This document shows, one piece after another, positions 26,562 through 34,209 of a DNA stretch of 35,307 nucleotides; the stretch's first letter is position 1; each line of letters starts with the position of its first letter. Under the pieces are notes generated by a model. That model had not been told where the DNA came from. It worked only from the letters and a program-made list of their open reading frames with translations, and searched no databases. The position numbers were made by a program, and so were the translations under genes. This DNA is from an uncultured Clostridia bacterium. GTDB taxonomy: Bacteria > Bacillota > Clostridia > Oscillospirales > Acutalibacteraceae. Where the stretch lies: assembly GCA_946491705.1 (NCBI GenBank), contig CAMLYM010000006.1, positions 1 to 35,307 of the forward strand, written 5' to 3'.

Positions 26562-27233
26562 ATGGATATAAAGATTTCCCCTTCCATCCTTTCGGCGGAT
26601 TTTGCCCGTCTCTCGGCCGACGTGGACAAAGTCTCCGGCGCCGAGATGCTCCACATCGACGTGATGGACGGCCATTTTGTCCCCAACATCTCCATCGGCA
26701 CGCCGGTGGTCAAGTCCCTGCGAAAGGCGAGCCGCATGTTTTTCGACGTGCATTTGATGATTTCCGATCCGCTGAAATATGTAGGCCCCTTTGCGGACTG
26801 CGGGGCGGACCTGATTACCTTCCACGTGGAGAGCGGCTCGGATCCGGACGCGGTGATCGCCGCCATCCGGGAAAAGGGAAAAATCCCCGCCATCTCGGTC
26901 AAGCCGAAAACTCCGGCCCAGGCAGTGTACCCGTATCTTGACAAAGTGGGGATGGTGCTGGTCATGACGGTGGAGCCCGGCTTCGGCGGGCAGAGCTTCA
27001 TGGCCGACATGCTCCCGAAAATAAAAGCCCTCCGGCAGAAGGCCGAAGAGCTTTCCCTCGATCTGGATATTCAGGTGGACGGGGGGATTGATCTGAACAC
27101 GGCGCCTCTGGTGGCGCAGGCGGGCGCCAACGTGCTGGTGGCGGGCAGTTCGGTTTTCGGCAGCGGGGATCCCGCCGCTATGGTGGAGAAGCTGCGCGAA
27201 GCGGCAAGGGCCGCCTATGGCCGGGATCGGTAA
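26562..27233 (+). CDS. rpe: Ribulose-phosphate 3-epimerase
   Basis: This 223-residue TIM-barrel enzyme interconverts ribulose 5-phosphate and xylulose 5-phosphate in the pentose phosphate pathway. SPSILSADF (6-14), the metal-binding HIDVMDGHFVPN, FDVHLMI, MTVEPGFGGQSF and QVDGGID are all present. The length is standard. The ATG follows GGAGG by 10 bp. It has its own promoter, divergent from glmU, and supplies the pathway that feeds prs with ribose 5-phosphate. Confidence 0.97.
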   Translation: MDIKISPSILSADFARLSADVDKVSGAEMLHIDVMDGHFVPNISIGTPVVKSLRKASRMFFDVHLMISDPLKYVGPFADCGADLITFHVESGSDPDAVIAAIREKGKIPAISVKPKTPAQAVYPYLDKVGMVLVMTVEPGFGGQSFMADMLPKIKALRQKAEELSLDLDIQVDGGIDLNTAPLVAQAGANVLVAGSSVFGSGDPAAMVEKLREAARAAYGRDR

Positions 27234-27296: not shown

Positions 27297-27884
27297 CTAC
27301 GTGCCGTACCGGCCGATTTTCATAATAGCGTCCTCTTCGGCCAAAAGCTGGCCGTGCTCGGCGGCATAGGCCGCCGCGGGCGCGCCTTCGCCGGCAAATT
27401 CGCCGTATTCCTTTAAAAGCGGTTCCAGTATGGAGACTTTCCCTTCCTTTGTATAGACCACCAGCCGGTATCCCCGGCCAAAGCGGTAGGCCGTGCTTTT
27501 GGGGATGCTTTCGCGCTGCTCGTGCCACAGGCGCGTGCATACGCACAAAAGTTCCTCTGCGCTTGGAAACTCGTATACATAAGGCCCGCACAGCCGCTTA
27601 CACTGCAATTTCCCCACCCCCTGCAGGGCTGTAAGGTCCCGCGGCAGCACCGTGAAATACAGGATACAGCCGCCGTCGAGCAGGGGCAGCGCCTCGATCA
27701 GCAACCGGCCGCCGGAGCTGTCGAAGCCGGTCTGGCGGCTGGCCTCGTCGAGCAGCTCCCAAATGACTCTGCGGGTCTCCATCTCGGCATAGTCCAGGTC
27801 GTCGAAGGAAAGGGACAGCGCGCGCAAATCCTCATATTTTAATGTGATTTTCAGACGGTCCTCCGAGCAGAGTTCTATTTTCAT
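27297..27884 (-). CDS. mecA: MecA-like adaptor protein
   Basis: This 195-residue protein matches the MecA family: the N-terminal substrate-binding half has MKIELCSEDRLKITLKYEDL and WELLDEASRQTGFD, with LLIEALPL; the C-terminal half resembles the ClpC-binding domain. MecA adaptors deliver substrates to the ClpC/ClpP protease and control processes such as competence. Similarity is clear in the N-terminal half and weaker after. The ATG at 27884 is chosen over an upstream TTG, although the ribosome binding site is weak. It is convergent with rpe and divergent from the Rnf-like operon. Confidence 0.82.
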   Translation of the reverse strand: MKIELCSEDRLKITLKYEDLRALSLSFDDLDYAEMETRRVIWELLDEASRQTGFDSSGGRLLIEALPLLDGGCILYFTVLPRDLTALQGVGKLQCKRLCGPYVYEFPSAEELLCVCTRLWHEQRESIPKSTAYRFGRGYRLVVYTKEGKVSILEPLLKEYGEFAGEGAPAAAYAAEHGQLLAEEDAIMKIGRYGT

Positions 27885-27981
27885 CAGCTTCAGCCCCAAT
27901 CGGTTCAGAATCGGAGGGCACCGGACCCTCTCCTCCCATCATATGCAGGTACCAACACGGATGCAAGAGGTGAAAAACAGG

Positions 27982-29505
27982 ATGACAATAATTTCTAGGC
28001 GCGGCATCTATCTGCCGAGCCATAAAAAGGAAACCCTTCGCAAGCCCATAGAATCAGCGGGCCTGCCCGACCGGCTGGCGATTCCGCTTTTTATAGACGG
28101 AGAGACGGACAATCCTTGCGTGCCCAGCGTGTCGGAGGACAGCCGGGTACGAAAGTATGAAACGGTGGGGGTGTTCGCCTCCGGGTTTCATGCCATTTCT
28201 CCCGTGGACGGGACAGTGCTGGAAATCCGGGAGATGGACGGGCTTCCCTATCTGATTTTGGAGCCCGACGAGGAGCAGCAGGAACCCTCGCCGCTGCCCG
28301 CCTTGGACCCCAAAACGGTTTTGGAGGATGAAATTTTCGAGCGGGCCAACCGCGCAGCGGTAACGGCTGGGGGCCGACCTCTCAGCGAGGTGCTCGATAC
28401 CTATAAAAAGAAGGGCGTCGTGCAGCTGTGGGCGGACGCCATTTGTGACGAAACGTATTCCACCGCCCGCATCGAGCTGCTGCGCACCCGCGGGGAAGAC
28501 CTTGTTGCCGGCCTGCAGTTGGCGGCCAGAGCCATCGGGGCCCAGGCGGCGGGGATTTTGGTTTCCGCCTTTTCTTCCCGTGGGTTACCCGAAGGGGTGG
28601 ACGGCCTGCCGGTGGAAAAGGCGCTGGGGAAATATCCGCTGCGCGACAGAGTCAGGGAAAAGCTGGCCATGACCCAGGGGGCGCTGTTGGACGCGGGAGC
28701 CCTGCTTGCCCTTTACGAAGCGGTGACTCTGGGAAAGGGCTGCGTCCAAACCCTTGTCACCGTCAACGGCAACTGCGTGGCCACTCCGAAAAACCTGTGG
28801 GTGGCCTGCGGTACGCCGGTTTCCTACCTGTTCGACGTGTGCGGCCTGACCGAGGAGCCTACCTGCTTTCTGCTGGGGGACGCCATGACCGGCCGCCTGG
28901 CCGACCGGAAGGACCCGGTGGCGCTGGGGACGGATACGGCCCTGGCCTTTGTCACCGATAAAATCCGCAAGCGTGCCTGTATCAACTGCGGGCGCTGCAT
29001 CGAGCGCTGTCCGAGGATGCTCTACCCCACGGAAATCGCCCGCGCTTTAGACGCGAAGGAATACGAACAGCTTTTGCGGCAGAATGCCGCCGCCTGCACC
29101 GGCTGCGGCGTCTGCTCGTATGTTTGCCCGGTGGGAATCGACCTGACGATGAAAACCAAGCGAGCCGTCAGGCAGGTGAGACGGCTGCTGGAGGAGGAAG
29201 AGCTGGCAAAAGCCCAGCGGATGCTTCCAAACGCCGTGCCGGAGGAAGAGCAGGAGACGGTTTTGAGCGGCTTTGGCCGGGACGATTTGTTCGATCCCGT
29301 TTTCTATGAGCCGGAGAAGGAGACGCTTTCTTTTTTCACGAAGTCCCTTACGCCTTCCAAGAAGCAGCCGGTTCCGAAGAACAAGAAGACGCAGAAAAAT
29401 CCTTCTTCTAAGAAAACCAATGGAAAAAATCCGTCCGCATCCGGGAAACCGGATTCCAAGGGAAAGTCCGGCGGCAAAAAGACCACGAAGGGGGCGAAGA
29501 AATGA
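27982..29505 (+). CDS. rnfC: RnfC-like subunit with altered FMN/NADH region and Lys-rich tail
   Basis: This 507-residue protein follows RnfC in outline: an N-terminal RGIYLPSHKKET (7-18) corresponds to the usual GGIHPPEHK block, then a barrel-sandwich region, a central alpha/beta region with KYP (217-219), and two [4Fe-4S] motifs at Cys333/336/339/343 and Cys372/375/378/382. The glycine-rich FMN/NADH motif, normally GGATFP, reads GGRPLSEVL (130-138), and the usual NGAECEP block reads ADAICDE. Residues about 455-507 are a Lys/Ser/Pro tail not expected in RnfC. The ATG at 27982 follows a weak AGGTGA; an earlier start would add a non-conserved extension. The stop overlaps the next start (ATGA). 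Confidence 0.85.
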   Translation: MTIISRRGIYLPSHKKETLRKPIESAGLPDRLAIPLFIDGETDNPCVPSVSEDSRVRKYETVGVFASGFHAISPVDGTVLEIREMDGLPYLILEPDEEQQEPSPLPALDPKTVLEDEIFERANRAAVTAGGRPLSEVLDTYKKKGVVQLWADAICDETYSTARIELLRTRGEDLVAGLQLAARAIGAQAAGILVSAFSSRGLPEGVDGLPVEKALGKYPLRDRVREKLAMTQGALLDAGALLALYEAVTLGKGCVQTLVTVNGNCVATPKNLWVACGTPVSYLFDVCGLTEEPTCFLLGDAMTGRLADRKDPVALGTDTALAFVTDKIRKRACINCGRCIERCPRMLYPTEIARALDAKEYEQLLRQNAAACTGCGVCSYVCPVGIDLTMKTKRAVRQVRRLLEEEELAKAQRMLPNAVPEEEQETVLSGFGRDDLFDPVFYEPEKETLSFFTKSLTPSKKQPVPKNKKTQKNPSSKKTNGKNPSASGKPDSKGKSGGKKTTKGAKK

Positions 29506-30485
29506 CGCGAACGAAAACCGCGCCCTTTGTCCGGCAGGGCGTTTCCTCCATGGCCATTTCCATGGACGTGCTTTTAGCCGGGCTGGTGCTTTTGGCCATG
29601 TCTTACCTCTATTACGGCTGGCGCCCGGTTTTGCTGGGCCTGATTGGAGGGGTTTCCTCCCTTGGCGCCCAGATTCTTGTGAGTCTTCTTCTTTCCCACC
29701 ACCTGCCGGCAAGACCGGTTTCCGCCGCGGCCTACGGCTTGACGGTGGCGTTACTGCTCCCTCCCTCGGCTCCCTACTGGATGCCGGTGGCGGGCGGCGT
29801 GTTTGCCACGGCGGTGGCATGCGTGCCCTTGGGCGGAGAGGGGCATTCTCCCTTTCATCCTGCTGCGGCGGGCGCTTCCTTCTTAACCATATGCTTCGCA
29901 GAGCAAATGTTTGCTTATCCGGCCCCGCGGGCGCCTATGACAAATTTTTTGCCGCTGGGAGACACGGCTTCGGTGATTGCGGGGACCTCCCCTGCCTCGG
30001 TGATGAAAAACGGGGTTTCTCCTCTGACCACCCTGACCGAAGCGGTCACCGGCCAGGCGGCTGGAGCCATCGGCGCGGTCTTTATCCTGATTATCGCCGC
30101 TTGTGCGGTGTACCTAATTGCCCGCCGGGCGGTGTACCTTTCTTCCATCCTGTCCTTCCTGGCGGGAATCTACCTCATCGGCTACCTGTGGCCCCGGCTC
30201 TCCACCGGCCCGATCACCTCGGGACTGTGGGAGCTTCTGAGCGGCAGCGTGGTTTTTGCGGCGGTGTTTTTGGTGGGGGACCGGCGGTACGCCTCCAAGC
30301 ATTTCTGGGTGCGCATCGTCTTGGGTCTGCTGACCGCTGCGGTCTGTATGGCCATGCGGTATTACGGCGTGTATGAGCAGGGCGCCTTCTTTGCAGTGCT
30401 GCTTGTCAACGCCGTGGTTCCGCTTTTTGACCGGCGCCTGACCCATCTGTTCGAAAAAGGAGGGGCTTTGCATGCCGAAGAATAG
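29502..30485 (+). CDS. rnfD: RnfD-like membrane subunit with altered flavin-attachment motif
   Basis: This 327-residue polytopic protein fits the NqrB/RnfD family. Landmarks include LTVALLLPPSAPYWMPVAGGVFA split over about 80-103, GGEGHSPFHPAAAG (111-124, canonical GxNxFNPA) and LLSGSVVFAAVFLVGD near the end. In canonical RnfD a Thr in the SGATPL-type motif carries covalent FMN. Here the aligned segment is AGTSPAS (160-166), with Ser163 at the flavin position and Thr162 before it. The later TDP motif reads GDR. It overlaps rnfC by 4 bp and rnfE by 14 bp, so it is part of one coupled operon. Confidence 0.85.
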   Translation: MTRTKTAPFVRQGVSSMAISMDVLLAGLVLLAMSYLYYGWRPVLLGLIGGVSSLGAQILVSLLLSHHLPARPVSAAAYGLTVALLLPPSAPYWMPVAGGVFATAVACVPLGGEGHSPFHPAAAGASFLTICFAEQMFAYPAPRAPMTNFLPLGDTASVIAGTSPASVMKNGVSPLTTLTEAVTGQAAGAIGAVFILIIAACAVYLIARRAVYLSSILSFLAGIYLIGYLWPRLSTGPITSGLWELLSGSVVFAAVFLVGDRRYASKHFWVRIVLGLLTAAVCMAMRYYGVYEQGAFFAVLLVNAVVPLFDRRLTHLFEKGGALHAEE

Positions 30486-31125
30486 GATGACCCCGGTTTC
30501 CGTGCCCGGCCCTTTGCTGGAACGGGCGGAGCACTGGCTTAGAAGGCCCATGCTGCTTTTCCTGCTGGCCGCCTTCCCGGCGGTCCTGGCGGCGACCAGC
30601 TTTTACGACGCCTTTCTTCTTTCGGTCATCACCCTGCTTCTCACGGTGACCACCCAGACGCTCTTGTCCCTGGCGGGCGGACGTTTGGCCCAGTGGGCGC
30701 GGATTCTTGTGGCAGCCCTGGTGTCCACCGCGGTGATGACCGGCCTGTTCTTCCTGGCAAGCATCTGGGCGACCGATTTCTTTGAGCGCAGCCTCTTTGT
30801 GCTCCCCATGCTGGCCTTACAGCCCATGGTGCTGCCTATGTCTGACCCGAAGGCCTTTTCCCTGCCGCCCAAAACGGCGGTGTGCGACGCGCTGGTGCGC
30901 AGCGCCGCTTTTGCCGCCGTCACGCTGGTGTGCGGGCTTTTGCGGGAGTTTTTGGCGGCCGGCACTTTGTTCGGCGCGCCCCTTTTCGGGGAAGGCGCCT
31001 CCCTGTTCCCTGCCTTCGCTGGTCCCTTTGGCGGGTTTGCGCTTTTAGGGATCGAAGCGGCCGTGGTGCAGGGAGTTTTGCAGCATCTGCGTCATAAAAA
31101 AGCGGAAGGAGGGCAAGACAAATGA
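30472..31125 (+). CDS. rnfE: RnfE-like membrane subunit lacking cluster cysteines
   Basis: This 217-residue protein has about six membrane helices. The block GLLREFLAAGTLFG (155-168) is the RnfE hallmark. The first cluster-binding block, LLGLCPLLAVTS in E. coli RsxE, aligns with LLAAFPAVLAATS, so Cys becomes Phe35. The second, TNCIVVGRAEAF, aligns with LQPMVLPMSDPKAF, so Cys becomes Pro118. The protein therefore cannot hold the intramembrane [2Fe-2S] cluster in the usual way. It starts inside the rnfD end, and its stop overlaps the rnfA start. Confidence 0.82.
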   Translation: MPKNRMTPVSVPGPLLERAEHWLRRPMLLFLLAAFPAVLAATSFYDAFLLSVITLLLTVTTQTLLSLAGGRLAQWARILVAALVSTAVMTGLFFLASIWATDFFERSLFVLPMLALQPMVLPMSDPKAFSLPPKTAVCDALVRSAAFAAVTLVCGLLREFLAAGTLFGAPLFGEGASLFPAFAGPFGGFALLGIEAAVVQGVLQHLRHKKAEGGQDK

Positions 31126-31721
31126 CCTTTCCAACCGCCTTTTTGCCGGTTGCCTTGTTTGCCGGCCTCCTTCGCAGCCTGCTTTTCGCGGGAGCTGGGC
31201 TGGATACCGCCCTCATCGGGGCGCGTACCCCCCGCCGCATCCCGCTGCTGGCTGGCCTTCTTCTTCTCTTCACCCTTCCGGCCACCCTCCTGGAAGCGGG
31301 CCTTATCCGACCTTATCTTACTGGCCTTGGCAATTACTTGCCCATGCTGGAGGCGGCTTTGTTTGTGGCCGTCAACGGGGTGCTCTTTGCCGTGGGGATG
31401 CTCCTTTTAAGCAAAAAACGCCCGGCCCTTTTGGAAAACCTGTGCCCGGAGCTGTGCGCCGCCGCATGGAACGCTTTGGTACTGGGCATATTTATGGGAG
31501 GCGAGGCGTCTTATACTACGGACCTTGGCGGCGCGGTGCTGACGGTGATTTTCGGTTGCCTGGCCTTTCTGGCGGCCTCCTGCCTGCTCATACCGGTGGA
31601 GCGTCTGTCTAATTCCCCGCGGGTTCCCAAGGCCTTTCGAGGCCTGCCCGCCCAGTTTCTCTATATCTCGATGATTTGCCTGGCTCTGGCCGGGTTTGCA
31701 TTCGGCGTCCCGGCACAGTAA
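31122..31721 (+). CDS. rnfA: RnfA-like membrane subunit lacking cluster cysteines
   Basis: This 199-residue protein has about six membrane helices and ends with VPKAFRGLPAQFLYISMICL, which matches the RsxA end VPAPFRG. The first cysteine block FLGLCPFMG aligns with FAGAGLDTA (Gly26 for Cys). The second, NCAVLGV, aligns with NALVLGI (Ala118 for Cys). Two nearby cysteines (108 and 112) are out of register. No rnfB follows; the next gene encodes a DUF4015-like protein. The ATG overlaps the rnfE stop by 4 bp. Confidence 0.82.
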   Translation: MTFPTAFLPVALFAGLLRSLLFAGAGLDTALIGARTPRRIPLLAGLLLLFTLPATLLEAGLIRPYLTGLGNYLPMLEAALFVAVNGVLFAVGMLLLSKKRPALLENLCPELCAAAWNALVLGIFMGGEASYTTDLGGAVLTVIFGCLAFLAASCLLIPVERLSNSPRVPKAFRGLPAQFLYISMICLALAGFAFGVPAQ

Positions 31722-31775
31722 TGGGACAAACGCCATCCGGTTTTTACGATCGGAGGAATCGACGGAGGTATGCAG

Positions 31776-32981
31776 ATGGAAAAAATCAAACGAAGAAAGT
31801 CCTTTCGGCGCAAGCGCAGTCCCTGGAAGATCATCCTGTTGATTTTAGGATGCGCGGTGCTGGTAGTGGGCGGCTTTTTCGCCGCGAGCATGATCGACAA
31901 TTACATCAATTATAAAAACAGCCAGCCCTCCGACGCGTCCTCGTCCTCTCCCTCGTCCCAACCCTCTTCCGACCCGGCGTCCCAGCCGGGCGGCGACGTG
32001 TCCTCCCAGGCCTCCAACCCCGGCCACACCACCCTCAAGGGGACCCGGGCGGTAACGGTGTCTGCCCAATCCTTAAGCAGCCGCGTGACCGAGCTGCTGG
32101 CCCTGGCGAAGGACGGGAAGATCAACGCCGTGGTGGTGGACATCAAGACCGAGGACGGCACCCTGCAATACGCCACCAACCTGGAAGCAGCCACCCGCGC
32201 CGGCGCGGCAAAGGCCGACGCCCCCGACCTTTCCACCGCCTTAAAGCAGCTCAAGGATGGCGGGGTCAAGACCATTGCCCGCATGTCCTGCTTTAAGGAC
32301 CCCAAAGCCGCCATGAAGCTTTCGGGCGCGGCGGTGATGTACCGCCCCAACCCGTCCCTCATCTGGCTTGACTCCACGAAAAACGGCAAGGCCTGGCTCA
32401 ACCCCTACGCCGACGCCGCCAAGACCTATCTGATTGACATCGCCGCCGAAGCGGCGGACATGGGCTTTGCCCAAATCCTGCTGGCAAACGTTCAGTTCCC
32501 CGACAACAACAGCTCCGCCAGCTATTATGGGGCTGCGGCTTCGAGCGTCAGCCAGTCCCAGGCGCTGACCGAGTTCGTCACCCAGATGAGTGACGCCATG
32601 CGGGCGAAGGATGTGGAGGTCCGCCTGCAAAGCGGGGCCCTGGCCGCCGCCGGCGGGACGAACACCATCTACGGCGGAGTCAACCCCGTCGCCTTGGGCG
32701 GCGAGGGCCTGGTGGTGGACCTGCGCGTGAGCGCTCTGGGTAAAAATCTGGCGATTGGGGAGGATACCATCGCCGACCCGGCCGCCGATCCGGTGACTAC
32801 CGTCGAGACGGTTGCCGCTGGGATGAAATCCGCCGGCGTGCAGCCCGTCTGCATTCTCGACGCGGACAGCACGAACCTTTCCGGCCAGATTTCCGCCCTG
32901 TCCGCCGCGGGCTTTGACGACTTTGTCCTCTACCGCGAAAGCGGAAGCTATACCGCCGGCGAGCTGACCACCAAAGACTGA
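31776..32981 (+). CDS. Membrane-anchored DUF4015-like (putative glycoside hydrolase) protein
   Basis: This 401-residue protein has a basic N-terminus, one membrane anchor (about 18-38) and a Ser/Pro linker (about 48-85), so the main domain lies outside the cell. The domain shows VVVDIKTEDGTLQY (119-132) and AAEAADMGFAQILLANVQFP, both in the order expected for the DUF4015 TIM-barrel family. The usual FDYIRFP motif reads LANVQFP, so its conserved Asp is missing. The ATG at 31776 follows GGAGG by 7 bp; an ATG at 31770 is too close to it. It starts 54 bp after the RnfA-like gene and may share its transcript. Activity is doubtful. Confidence 0.75.
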   Translation: MEKIKRRKSFRRKRSPWKIILLILGCAVLVVGGFFAASMIDNYINYKNSQPSDASSSSPSSQPSSDPASQPGGDVSSQASNPGHTTLKGTRAVTVSAQSLSSRVTELLALAKDGKINAVVVDIKTEDGTLQYATNLEAATRAGAAKADAPDLSTALKQLKDGGVKTIARMSCFKDPKAAMKLSGAAVMYRPNPSLIWLDSTKNGKAWLNPYADAAKTYLIDIAAEAADMGFAQILLANVQFPDNNSSASYYGAAASSVSQSQALTEFVTQMSDAMRAKDVEVRLQSGALAAAGGTNTIYGGVNPVALGGEGLVVDLRVSALGKNLAIGEDTIADPAADPVTTVETVAAGMKSAGVQPVCILDADSTNLSGQISALSAAGFDDFVLYRESGSYTAGELTTKD

Positions 32982-33048: not shown

Positions 33049-34209
33049 ATGTTAAAACGGGAAATCCCGTCGCTGGGCGTGACGGTGAGCCGCTTAGGCT
33101 TCGGCGCTATGCGCATGCCGGAACGGGACGGGAAGATTGAACGGGTGGAGGCCACCCGCATGATTGCGCACATGTTCGAGGCGGGCGTGACCTATTTCGA
33201 CACCGCCTACCCCTATCACAACGGCGAGTCGGAGGAAATGCTGGCCGGGGCGCTGCGCAGGTTCCCGCGGGAGCGCTTCTTTTTGGCGGACAAGCTGCCC
33301 TTTCTGGAATACAAGTCCGAAGCGGACTATAAGGCCGTCACCGAAGAGCAGTTCTCCCGCCTGGGGATGGATTATATCGACTTTCACCTGCTCCACGCCA
33401 TGAACGCCAAGCGCTGGAAATTTTTCAAAGAAATCGGCGTCCCCCAGTACCAGCAGGAGCTCAAGCGCCAGGGCCGCATCCGGTTTGCGGGCTTTTCCTT
33501 TCACGACTCCCCCGAGGCCCTGGAACAGATTCTCAACGACCAGCCGGACTGGGACTTTGTCCAGATCCAGCTCAATTACTTTGACTGGGCCTCTTCCCTG
33601 CGTTCCGGCGAGCTTTACAACATGCTGGCCGACCGGGGCATCCCCATCATCGTCATGGAACCCCTGCGGGGCGGAATGCTCGCCTCCCTTCCCCCTTACG
33701 CGCAGGACATTATTGCAACACGCCTCCCTGGCGTAACCCCCGCCAGCCTCGCGTACCGCTGGGTGGGGTCCCTCCCCTATGTGGACGTGATTTTAACCGG
33801 CGCCTCCACCATCGCCCAGGCGAAGGAGAACACCGCCGTGTTTGAGGACTTCTCCCCCCTGACCCAGAAGGAGTACGACGTGATCGACGAGGTGCTCGCC
33901 GCCATCGCCGCCAAGCCCAGCGTCCCCTGCACCGGCTGCCGGTACTGTGTCAGCGCCTGCCCCCAGGGAATCAACATTCCCCAGGTGTTTTACATATATA
34001 ATGAGCAGGGCAAGTTCGACTGCGACGGCACGACCCATTGGCGGTATCTCAATGAAATGAAACCCCAGGAGCGGGCGGAAAACTGCATCGAGTGCGGAGC
34101 GTGCGTCTCCCAATGTCCCCAGAAGATTGACATCCCCGAGGAGCTTAAGGTGGCCCGGAAAACCATCGGGGAAGCCTGCAAGCGGGCCGCCGCCGCGGAA
34201 AGCAAATAG
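33049..34209 (+). CDS. Aldo/keto reductase with C-terminal 2x[4Fe-4S] ferredoxin domain
   Basis: This 386-residue protein has an AKR barrel (1-280) with the tetrad residues Asp51 (FDTAYPY), Tyr56, Lys82 (LADKLP) and His116 (HLLHA). The C-terminal domain carries two CxxCxxCxxxCP motifs: CTGCRYCVSACP near 297 and CIECGACVSQCP from 346. Such fusions are common in Clostridia and may link NAD(P)H-dependent carbonyl reduction to ferredoxin; the substrate is unknown. The ATG follows AAGGAGG by 8 bp. It directly follows the Rnf-like operon unit, also a redox system, which may or may not be meaningful. Confidence 0.93.
   Translation: MLKREIPSLGVTVSRLGFGAMRMPERDGKIERVEATRMIAHMFEAGVTYFDTAYPYHNGESEEMLAGALRRFPRERFFLADKLPFLEYKSEADYKAVTEEQFSRLGMDYIDFHLLHAMNAKRWKFFKEIGVPQYQQELKRQGRIRFAGFSFHDSPEALEQILNDQPDWDFVQIQLNYFDWASSLRSGELYNMLADRGIPIIVMEPLRGGMLASLPPYAQDIIATRLPGVTPASLAYRWVGSLPYVDVILTGASTIAQAKENTAVFEDFSPLTQKEYDVIDEVLAAIAAKPSVPCTGCRYCVSACPQGINIPQVFYIYNEQGKFDCDGTTHWRYLNEMKPQERAENCIECGACVSQCPQKIDIPEELKVARKTIGEACKRAAAAESK

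Follow-up and report, generated by a model that had tools for sequence, protein, structure and literature searches.

Rnf and Nqr are redox-driven ion pumps built on a common core. The present work deals with a derived form of this core, found in a 35,307-nucleotide stretch of DNA from an uncultured Clostridia bacterium (contig CAMLYM010000006.1; hereafter the window), in which RnfC-, RnfD-, RnfE- and RnfA-like proteins are encoded without RnfG and RnfB. The cluster is named Rnf2 here, and its subunits C2, D2, E2 and A2. It is tentatively read as a third branch derived within the Rnf/Nqr superfamily, in which D2 would serve as a half-conduit for electrons.

In the Rnf complex of Acetobacterium woodii, RnfA and RnfE contribute four cysteines that hold a [2Fe-2S] cluster, while RnfD holds riboflavin by Asn123 and Asp249 and carries flavin mononucleotide (FMN) on Thr156; neither activity nor growth remained once the cluster cysteines or the riboflavin contacts had been removed (PMC11889175). 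The structure of the Rnf complex of Clostridium tetanomorphum represents a second source on the cofactor sites (PMC9588780). The Na+-NQR was proposed to go back to a duplication of the rnf operon followed by loss of rnfB, the RnfC counterpart having then lost the sites for FMN, nicotinamide adenine dinucleotide (NAD) and the clusters (PMC4014512). In the NQR/RNF-like half systems, which were described mainly in Actinobacteria and candidate phyla, an RnfD-type domain is combined with an NqrF-type NAD domain and a flavinylated partner to form a one-way conduit based on NqrB/RnfD (Meheust et al. 2021; PMC8238504).

The C, D, E and A subunits of Rnf2 are homologous to those of Rnf and are encoded in the canonical order. 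Unlike Rnf, however, Rnf2 lacks B, G, the [2Fe-2S] ligands of A and E and the FMN/NAD loop of C. Na+-NQR offers a precedent for an rnf duplicate devoid of rnfB (PMC4014512), but it keeps an RnfG-type subunit and the cofactors of A/E and D (PMC12174285), whereas Rnf2 lost G and the A/E ligands. Furthermore, NQR gained NqrF, while C of Rnf2 keeps its clusters. Neither NqrF nor NqrC is encoded in the window cluster, which consists of C, D, E and A and precedes genes for a DUF4015 protein and an aldo/keto reductase, and no FMN_bind match was obtained near the window in its genome. In contrast to the half systems, Rnf2 keeps E and A, and D2 is devoid of an NqrF-type domain. No Rnf cluster lacking B and G, or the A/E cysteines, was found in the open-licence literature of PubMed Central (PMC), and this is weak evidence that none has been described. 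By descent, Rnf2 is a member of the superfamily, and it lacks features that define a functional Rnf and a functional NQR.

Gene content, recurrence and ancestry of Rnf2

Four open frames on the plus strand (27982-31721) are arranged in the order C-D-E-A and overlap by 4 bp (C/D), 14 bp (D/E) and 4 bp (E/A). Neither G nor B was found between D2 and E2 or 3' of A2. The original prediction of a C-D-E-A set fused by overlaps and devoid of G and B is hereby confirmed. The ribosome-binding sites, which had been considered good, appeared so by eye for C, E and A, while that of D is weaker. D2 matched the Pfam family NQR2_RnfD_RnfE with 177.9 bits, its sole domain above the cut-off, and E2 matched Rnf-Nqr with 44.4 bits. 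C2 displayed RnfC_N and a 4Fe-4S dicluster domain, with no Pfam match to Complex1_51K. A2 gave no Pfam match and a weak match to the NCBIfam rnfA model (E 8.5e-4); the scores of all four proteins lie below the curated NCBIfam rnf cut-offs. Profiles built from relatives matched solved chains of RnfA (7zc6_A, 1e-25), RnfD (7e-65) and RnfC (8e-68). For the predicted model of A2, with a predicted local distance difference test (pLDDT) score of 74, the top fold matches were RnfA and NqrE chains with E 0.02-0.1, none being below 0.001; against 8ahx_A the probability was 1.00 but E was 0.019. The model of C2 (ma665ba5e0b3d, pLDDT 80) matched RnfC 8ahx_C with E 2.8e-34, so that the fold has outlived the loss of the FMN/NAD loop.

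A complete canonical rnfCDGEAB operon, the search for which had been proposed together with the original prediction, is present on another contig of the same genome (2.17 Mb assembly, 157 contigs, 90.8% complete), so that the window cluster represents a second, derived copy.

A search with E2 was made in 200 genomes of the same family. Matches were obtained in 113 of them, many to canonical RnfE. From the 40 family regions fetched afterwards, 38 carry Rnf2 and two are canonical operons (L068, L071); 20 further regions comprised 11 Rnf2, two intermediate and seven six-gene or canonical-type loci. Together with the window, 50 Rnf2 loci were analysed (loci are labelled L, genomes G, and families f1, the family of the window, f24, f22 and f3). 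With a profile of A2, canonical RnfA scored about 85-108 bits and the A subunits of Rnf2 in the family 123-248 bits, and Rnf2 was detected in at least 69/200 family genomes, which rejects a loss confined to one genome. This is a lower bound, since G013 has Rnf2 by synteny and was missed by the profile; the threshold also misses diverged forms such as the f24 loci L121 and L122, which score about 100 bits, inside the range of canonical RnfA. At the level of the order (197 genomes), the same profile detected second copies in f24 and f22, and at the level of the class (E 1e-31) matches were obtained in 8/292 genomes, all from f1 or f24. As had been asked of related genomes, the CDEA set recurs in the genus of the window, in all three genomes.

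In none of the 50 loci was a frame assigned to G or B. A location of G or B in gaps was considered and rejected for the four gaps read, those of L040 and L053 encoding a CAP-domain protein and those of L061 and L064 containing no convincing gene; L059 and L116 are among the gaps left out. C is present in 23 loci and absent in 27, although contig ends truncate a few of the latter. A was detected in 47 loci. Seven loci end or turn unassigned at or soon after A. RnfC was not found elsewhere in any of the 12 C-less genomes tested, where the sole RnfC match lies on the contig carrying canonical rnfB; a separately encoded C is thus rejected for all 12.

The original prediction had also raised the case of unlinked rnfG and rnfB genes always co-occurring with the operon. 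At a cut-off of E 1e-14, rnfB was detected in 59 of the 69 Rnf2 genomes and not in the ten others. A closer look beyond rnfB covered G073, G104, G091 and G195 from these ten, plus G013. Canonical E/A and FMN_bind pieces occur in G073, whose missing rnfB is an assembly gap. Only Rnf2-type E/A and only C2 were found in G104 (99% complete, two contigs), G091 (98%) and G195 (94%), and only Rnf2-type E/A in G013 (79%). None of these four gave a match to an FMN_bind protein; G091 and G013 showed weak rnfB matches under the cut-off. The co-occurrence is thus not general, and Rnf2 does not need a borrowed B or G.

The ratio of nonsynonymous to synonymous substitution rates (dN/dS) among the three genomes of the genus was 0.17-0.29 for C, 0.09-0.11 for D, 0.21-0.30 for E and 0.13-0.17 for A. 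Similar values were obtained for the neighbouring genes rpe (0.06-0.25), DUF4015 (0.18-0.21) and aldo/keto reductase (0.09-0.12). The four Rnf2 genes are under purifying selection, in agreement with the earlier view that the operon is maintained. Together with the recurrence of CDEA or DEA across many genera in fixed synteny, this gives good support to the idea of a repurposed Rnf scaffold; taken as a whole, the original interpretation is partly supported.

A normal six-gene cluster at this place, which had been considered for the relatives, does not occur in the genus, whereas clusters of six and of five genes were found in f3. They adjoin the same DUF4015 gene, located downstream in L118, L119 and L120. 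These clusters point to the ancestry of Rnf2. L120 is a six-gene operon with all four A/E cysteines. L118 has six genes as well; its A lost both cysteines and its E the second one, whereas its G retains the flavin motif. As judged by eye, the first ferredoxin region, by which the A/E cluster is reduced in Rnf, is missing from its B. L119 has no B, and its G matches FMN_bind (32 bits) but lost the flavin motif. In a tree obtained with FastTree only (D+E+A of 59 loci, with long branches), all Rnf2 loci form one clade (0.97), with the intermediates L118 and L119 as sister (1.0) and L120, the closest canonical operon, next (0.99). Leaving aside L067 (cut contig), the C-less f1 loci included form one clade of 15 (1.0). 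The shared DUF4015 neighbour represents a second line of evidence for this ancestry beside the long-branched tree.

Lost and kept cofactor sites

The cysteines that hold the [2Fe-2S] cluster are largely gone from Rnf2. On the side of A, RnfA C25 is kept in 0/47 and C113 in 6/47 loci, all six from f24. On the side of E, C25 is kept in 22/50 and C108 in 0/50. At most one of the four cysteines is left in each of the 47 loci having both A and E. In the control, all four were present in 9/10 canonical loci, the exception being L124. The normal electron route through A and E is therefore ruled out, whether or not Rnf2 transfers electrons. Considering also the published A. woodii mutants, Rnf2 is not the usual ferredoxin:NAD+ ion pump.

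The sites of C2 and D2 had a different fate. Both [4Fe-4S] sites of C2 are kept, with all eight cysteines in 23/23 C2, while the Gly-rich FMN/NAD loop and the NGAECEPY motif are replaced. At the FMN position of D2, Ser was found in 40/50 and Thr in 2/50 loci, with Ser in 37/37 D2 of the family. Concerning the riboflavin contacts, Asn is kept in 25/50 and Asp in 36/50. Within f1, the Asn is kept in 16/22 loci with C versus 0/16 without C (L067 left out, its contig being cut), the C-less loci being one clade and not 16 independent events.

Some further features of these proteins were observed. The last 85 residues of C2 in the window (29248-29502) are predicted to be disordered and have a lysine-rich end (15 Lys in the last 45), which among the 23 C2 is found only in the genus of the window. 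In C-less family loci such as L040, L042, L049, L050 and L053, most E2 have long charged C-terminal tails; a motif common to them was considered and rejected, an LxxLMxxSLDDII-like stretch near the end occurring in 5/16, too few to use. The exceptional control locus L124:6387-11850 (G216, f18) is a six-gene rnf operon in which RnfE lacks Cys108 and the first cysteine of RnfA is displaced by one residue; a different contig of G216 gave a further RnfA match.

Possible function of Rnf2

The following function is tentatively proposed for Rnf2. The cluster would go back to a canonical rnf operon that lost redox parts step by step, leaving D as the one branch that may still conduct electrons, in the manner of a half-conduit. 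The [4Fe-4S] clusters of C2 would be reduced by a cytosolic donor, and electrons would travel from there to the riboflavin site of D2 and then to an FMN on Ser163 at the outer side of the membrane. This FMN could be attached by ApbE, and A2 and E2 would remain as membrane partners of D2. The lineages devoid of C would have to use another donor, or would be further removed from redox work.

The loss of the A/E ligands, the eight conserved cysteines, the serine at the FMN position, the pattern of Asn and C, the retention of ApbE, the purifying selection and the single clade with its intermediates all argue for the half-conduit. ApbE was detected in G104, G091 and G013, all of which lack an FMN_bind protein. 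As ApbE is able to modify serine (PMC12052999), Ser163 of D2 is a candidate target of flavinylation. Several observations weigh against this proposal. Both the electron donor and the acceptor are putative. The riboflavin Asn is replaced by His in D2 of the window itself, and 9/10 f24 loci are devoid of C and yet keep this Asn. In f24, the residue at the FMN position is often Leu, Ile or Gly. Most Rnf2 replace two polar RnfD contacts to FMN, Arg130 and Glu185 (C. tetanomorphum numbering, according to the mapping made here), and the ApbE motif fits poorly around Ser163. Moreover, no ApbE match was obtained in the Rnf2 genomes G195 and G170. ApbE is present in 8/10 Rnf2-only genomes versus 19/35 genomes with neither system, which is not significant (p 0.27); the figures are 10/12 versus 17/33 (p 0.09) when G013 and G141 are counted as Rnf2.

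Nearly as likely as the half-conduit, though doubtful in itself, is a function of D2-E2-A2 as a non-redox membrane platform or channel. These three subunits would have preserved nothing but their folds. D2 would then be a pore or a scaffold cooperating with proteins of the envelope, for example the DUF4015 protein, and the [4Fe-4S] sites in C2 would be regulatory or a remnant. The redox parts were indeed lost one by one while D, E and A persist, and C is absent from more than half of the loci and is not encoded elsewhere in any of the C-less genomes tested. RnfD is related to ammonium/urea transporters (PMC12174285). DUF4015 follows Rnf2 with a strong match in 27/50 loci and a weak partial match in three more, and a CAP-domain lipoprotein occupies the RnfG slot of two loci. 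The strict conservation of the eight cluster cysteines in C2 and the near-invariant Ser163 argue against such a platform, as does the lack of DUF4015 in several loci whose sequence extends far enough downstream.

A redox-gated device appears unlikely. Here, the clusters of C2 and the riboflavin of D2 would sense the cytosolic redox state and gate a pore in D2 without net export of electrons. Within the family, loci that retain the C2 clusters tend to retain the riboflavin contacts as well, but this correlation stems from few independent events; in addition, the C-less lineages are left unexplained and no transport activity is known.

It is highly improbable that Rnf2 is a partial operon which shares the RnfB and RnfG encoded by the canonical operon in its genome and so functions like an ordinary variant of Rnf. 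The frequent presence of rnfB in Rnf2 genomes would fit with it, but such borrowing is rejected by the loss of the A/E ligands and by G104, G091, G195 and G013, which have Rnf2 without canonical E/A, FMN_bind or rnfB over the cut-off. A decaying pseudo-operon or an assembly artefact, as the strong divergence and the fragmented assembly of the window's genome could suggest, is effectively excluded by the dN/dS values (0.09-0.30) and by the many family genomes with Rnf2, including the one- to three-contig assemblies G152, G104 and G099.

Rnf2 was thus probably converted to a new job. The half-conduit through D2 being the favoured mechanism, an even chance is given to the broader proposal that Rnf2 is a third functional class, namely an rnf duplicate in which the A/E branch is switched off and the D branch is a one-way flavin conduit or a redox-gated channel, with new envelope partners and with extant intermediates that show in which order the parts were lost. 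Rnf2 represents a natural separation-of-function set, as the core was kept while the [2Fe-2S] cluster, RnfG and RnfB were dropped. It could be used to test the roles of D, E and A without A/E electrons, and whether D alone carries electrons or solutes, and it could show the stepwise dismantling of a redox pump. If these genes were annotated as RnfC, D, E and A, they would be taken to encode an energy-conserving pump which is probably not there, and in G104, G091, G195 and G013 Rnf2 is the only form.

Coordinates and gene context

Features of the Rnf2 region in the window (aa, amino acids)
Feature	Position	Strand	Evidence or remark
rpe, context gene	26562-27233	+	upstream in 47/50 Rnf2 loci
mecA, divergent context gene	27297-27899	-	upstream in 35/50 Rnf2 loci
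C2, RnfC-like, 507 aa	27982-29505	+	open frame, RnfC_N, RnfC profile and model match
Eight cysteine codons, [4Fe-4S] sites of C2 (residues 333, 336, 339, 343, 372, 375, 378, 382)	28978-29127	+	invariant
D2, RnfD-like, 327 aa	29502-30485	+	open frame, Pfam NQR2_RnfD_RnfE, RnfD profile
His119 of D2, place of the riboflavin-contacting Asn	29856-29858	+	alignment
Ser163 of D2, place of the covalent-FMN Thr	29988-29990	+	one of four invariant columns in 37 family D2
Asp260 of D2, place of the riboflavin-contacting Asp (kept)	30279-30281	+	alignment
E2, RnfE-like, 217 aa	30472-31125	+	open frame, Pfam Rnf-Nqr
Phe35 of E2, place of [2Fe-2S] ligand Cys25	30574-30576	+	alignment
Pro118 of E2, place of [2Fe-2S] ligand Cys108	30823-30825	+	alignment
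A2, RnfA-like, very divergent, 199 aa	31122-31721	+	profile match to RnfA
Asp28 of A2, place of [2Fe-2S] ligand Cys25	31203-31205	+	alignment
Ala118 of A2, place of [2Fe-2S] ligand Cys113	31473-31475	+	alignment
DUF4015 protein, putative glycosyl hydrolase fold, possible partner	31770-32981	+	127.3 bits

The CAP-domain protein encoded between D2 and E2 is predicted to be secreted and was found in two genomes of one genus (L040:8109-8891, 76 bits; L053:5418-6191, 84 bits). In L040, L053 and L065, all without DUF4015, A2 is directly followed by a small protein that has a single membrane helix and an outer part rich in Thr/Ser. The DUF4015 anchor may have persisted in this form, L040 and L065 giving weak DUF4015 matches. 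The excerpt of the one paper found on DUF4015 contains no link to Rnf.

The ApbE gene of G091 is located beside genes for NusG_II and Hpre_diP_synt_I, and that of G013 beside Hpre_diP_synt_I. NusG_II and Hpre_diP_synt_I also precede the canonical rnf operon in the genome of the window, so that the ApbE neighbourhood in G091 and G013 resembles a canonical operon's flank left behind after the loss of the rnf genes. ApbE with NusG_II and/or Hpre_diP_synt_I in genomes without canonical rnf was observed at L131:4068-5988 and L132:5073-6738.

Finally, the aldo/keto reductase encoded after the window cluster (33049-34209) displays two 4Fe-4S motifs and is found at the same place in all three genomes of the genus.

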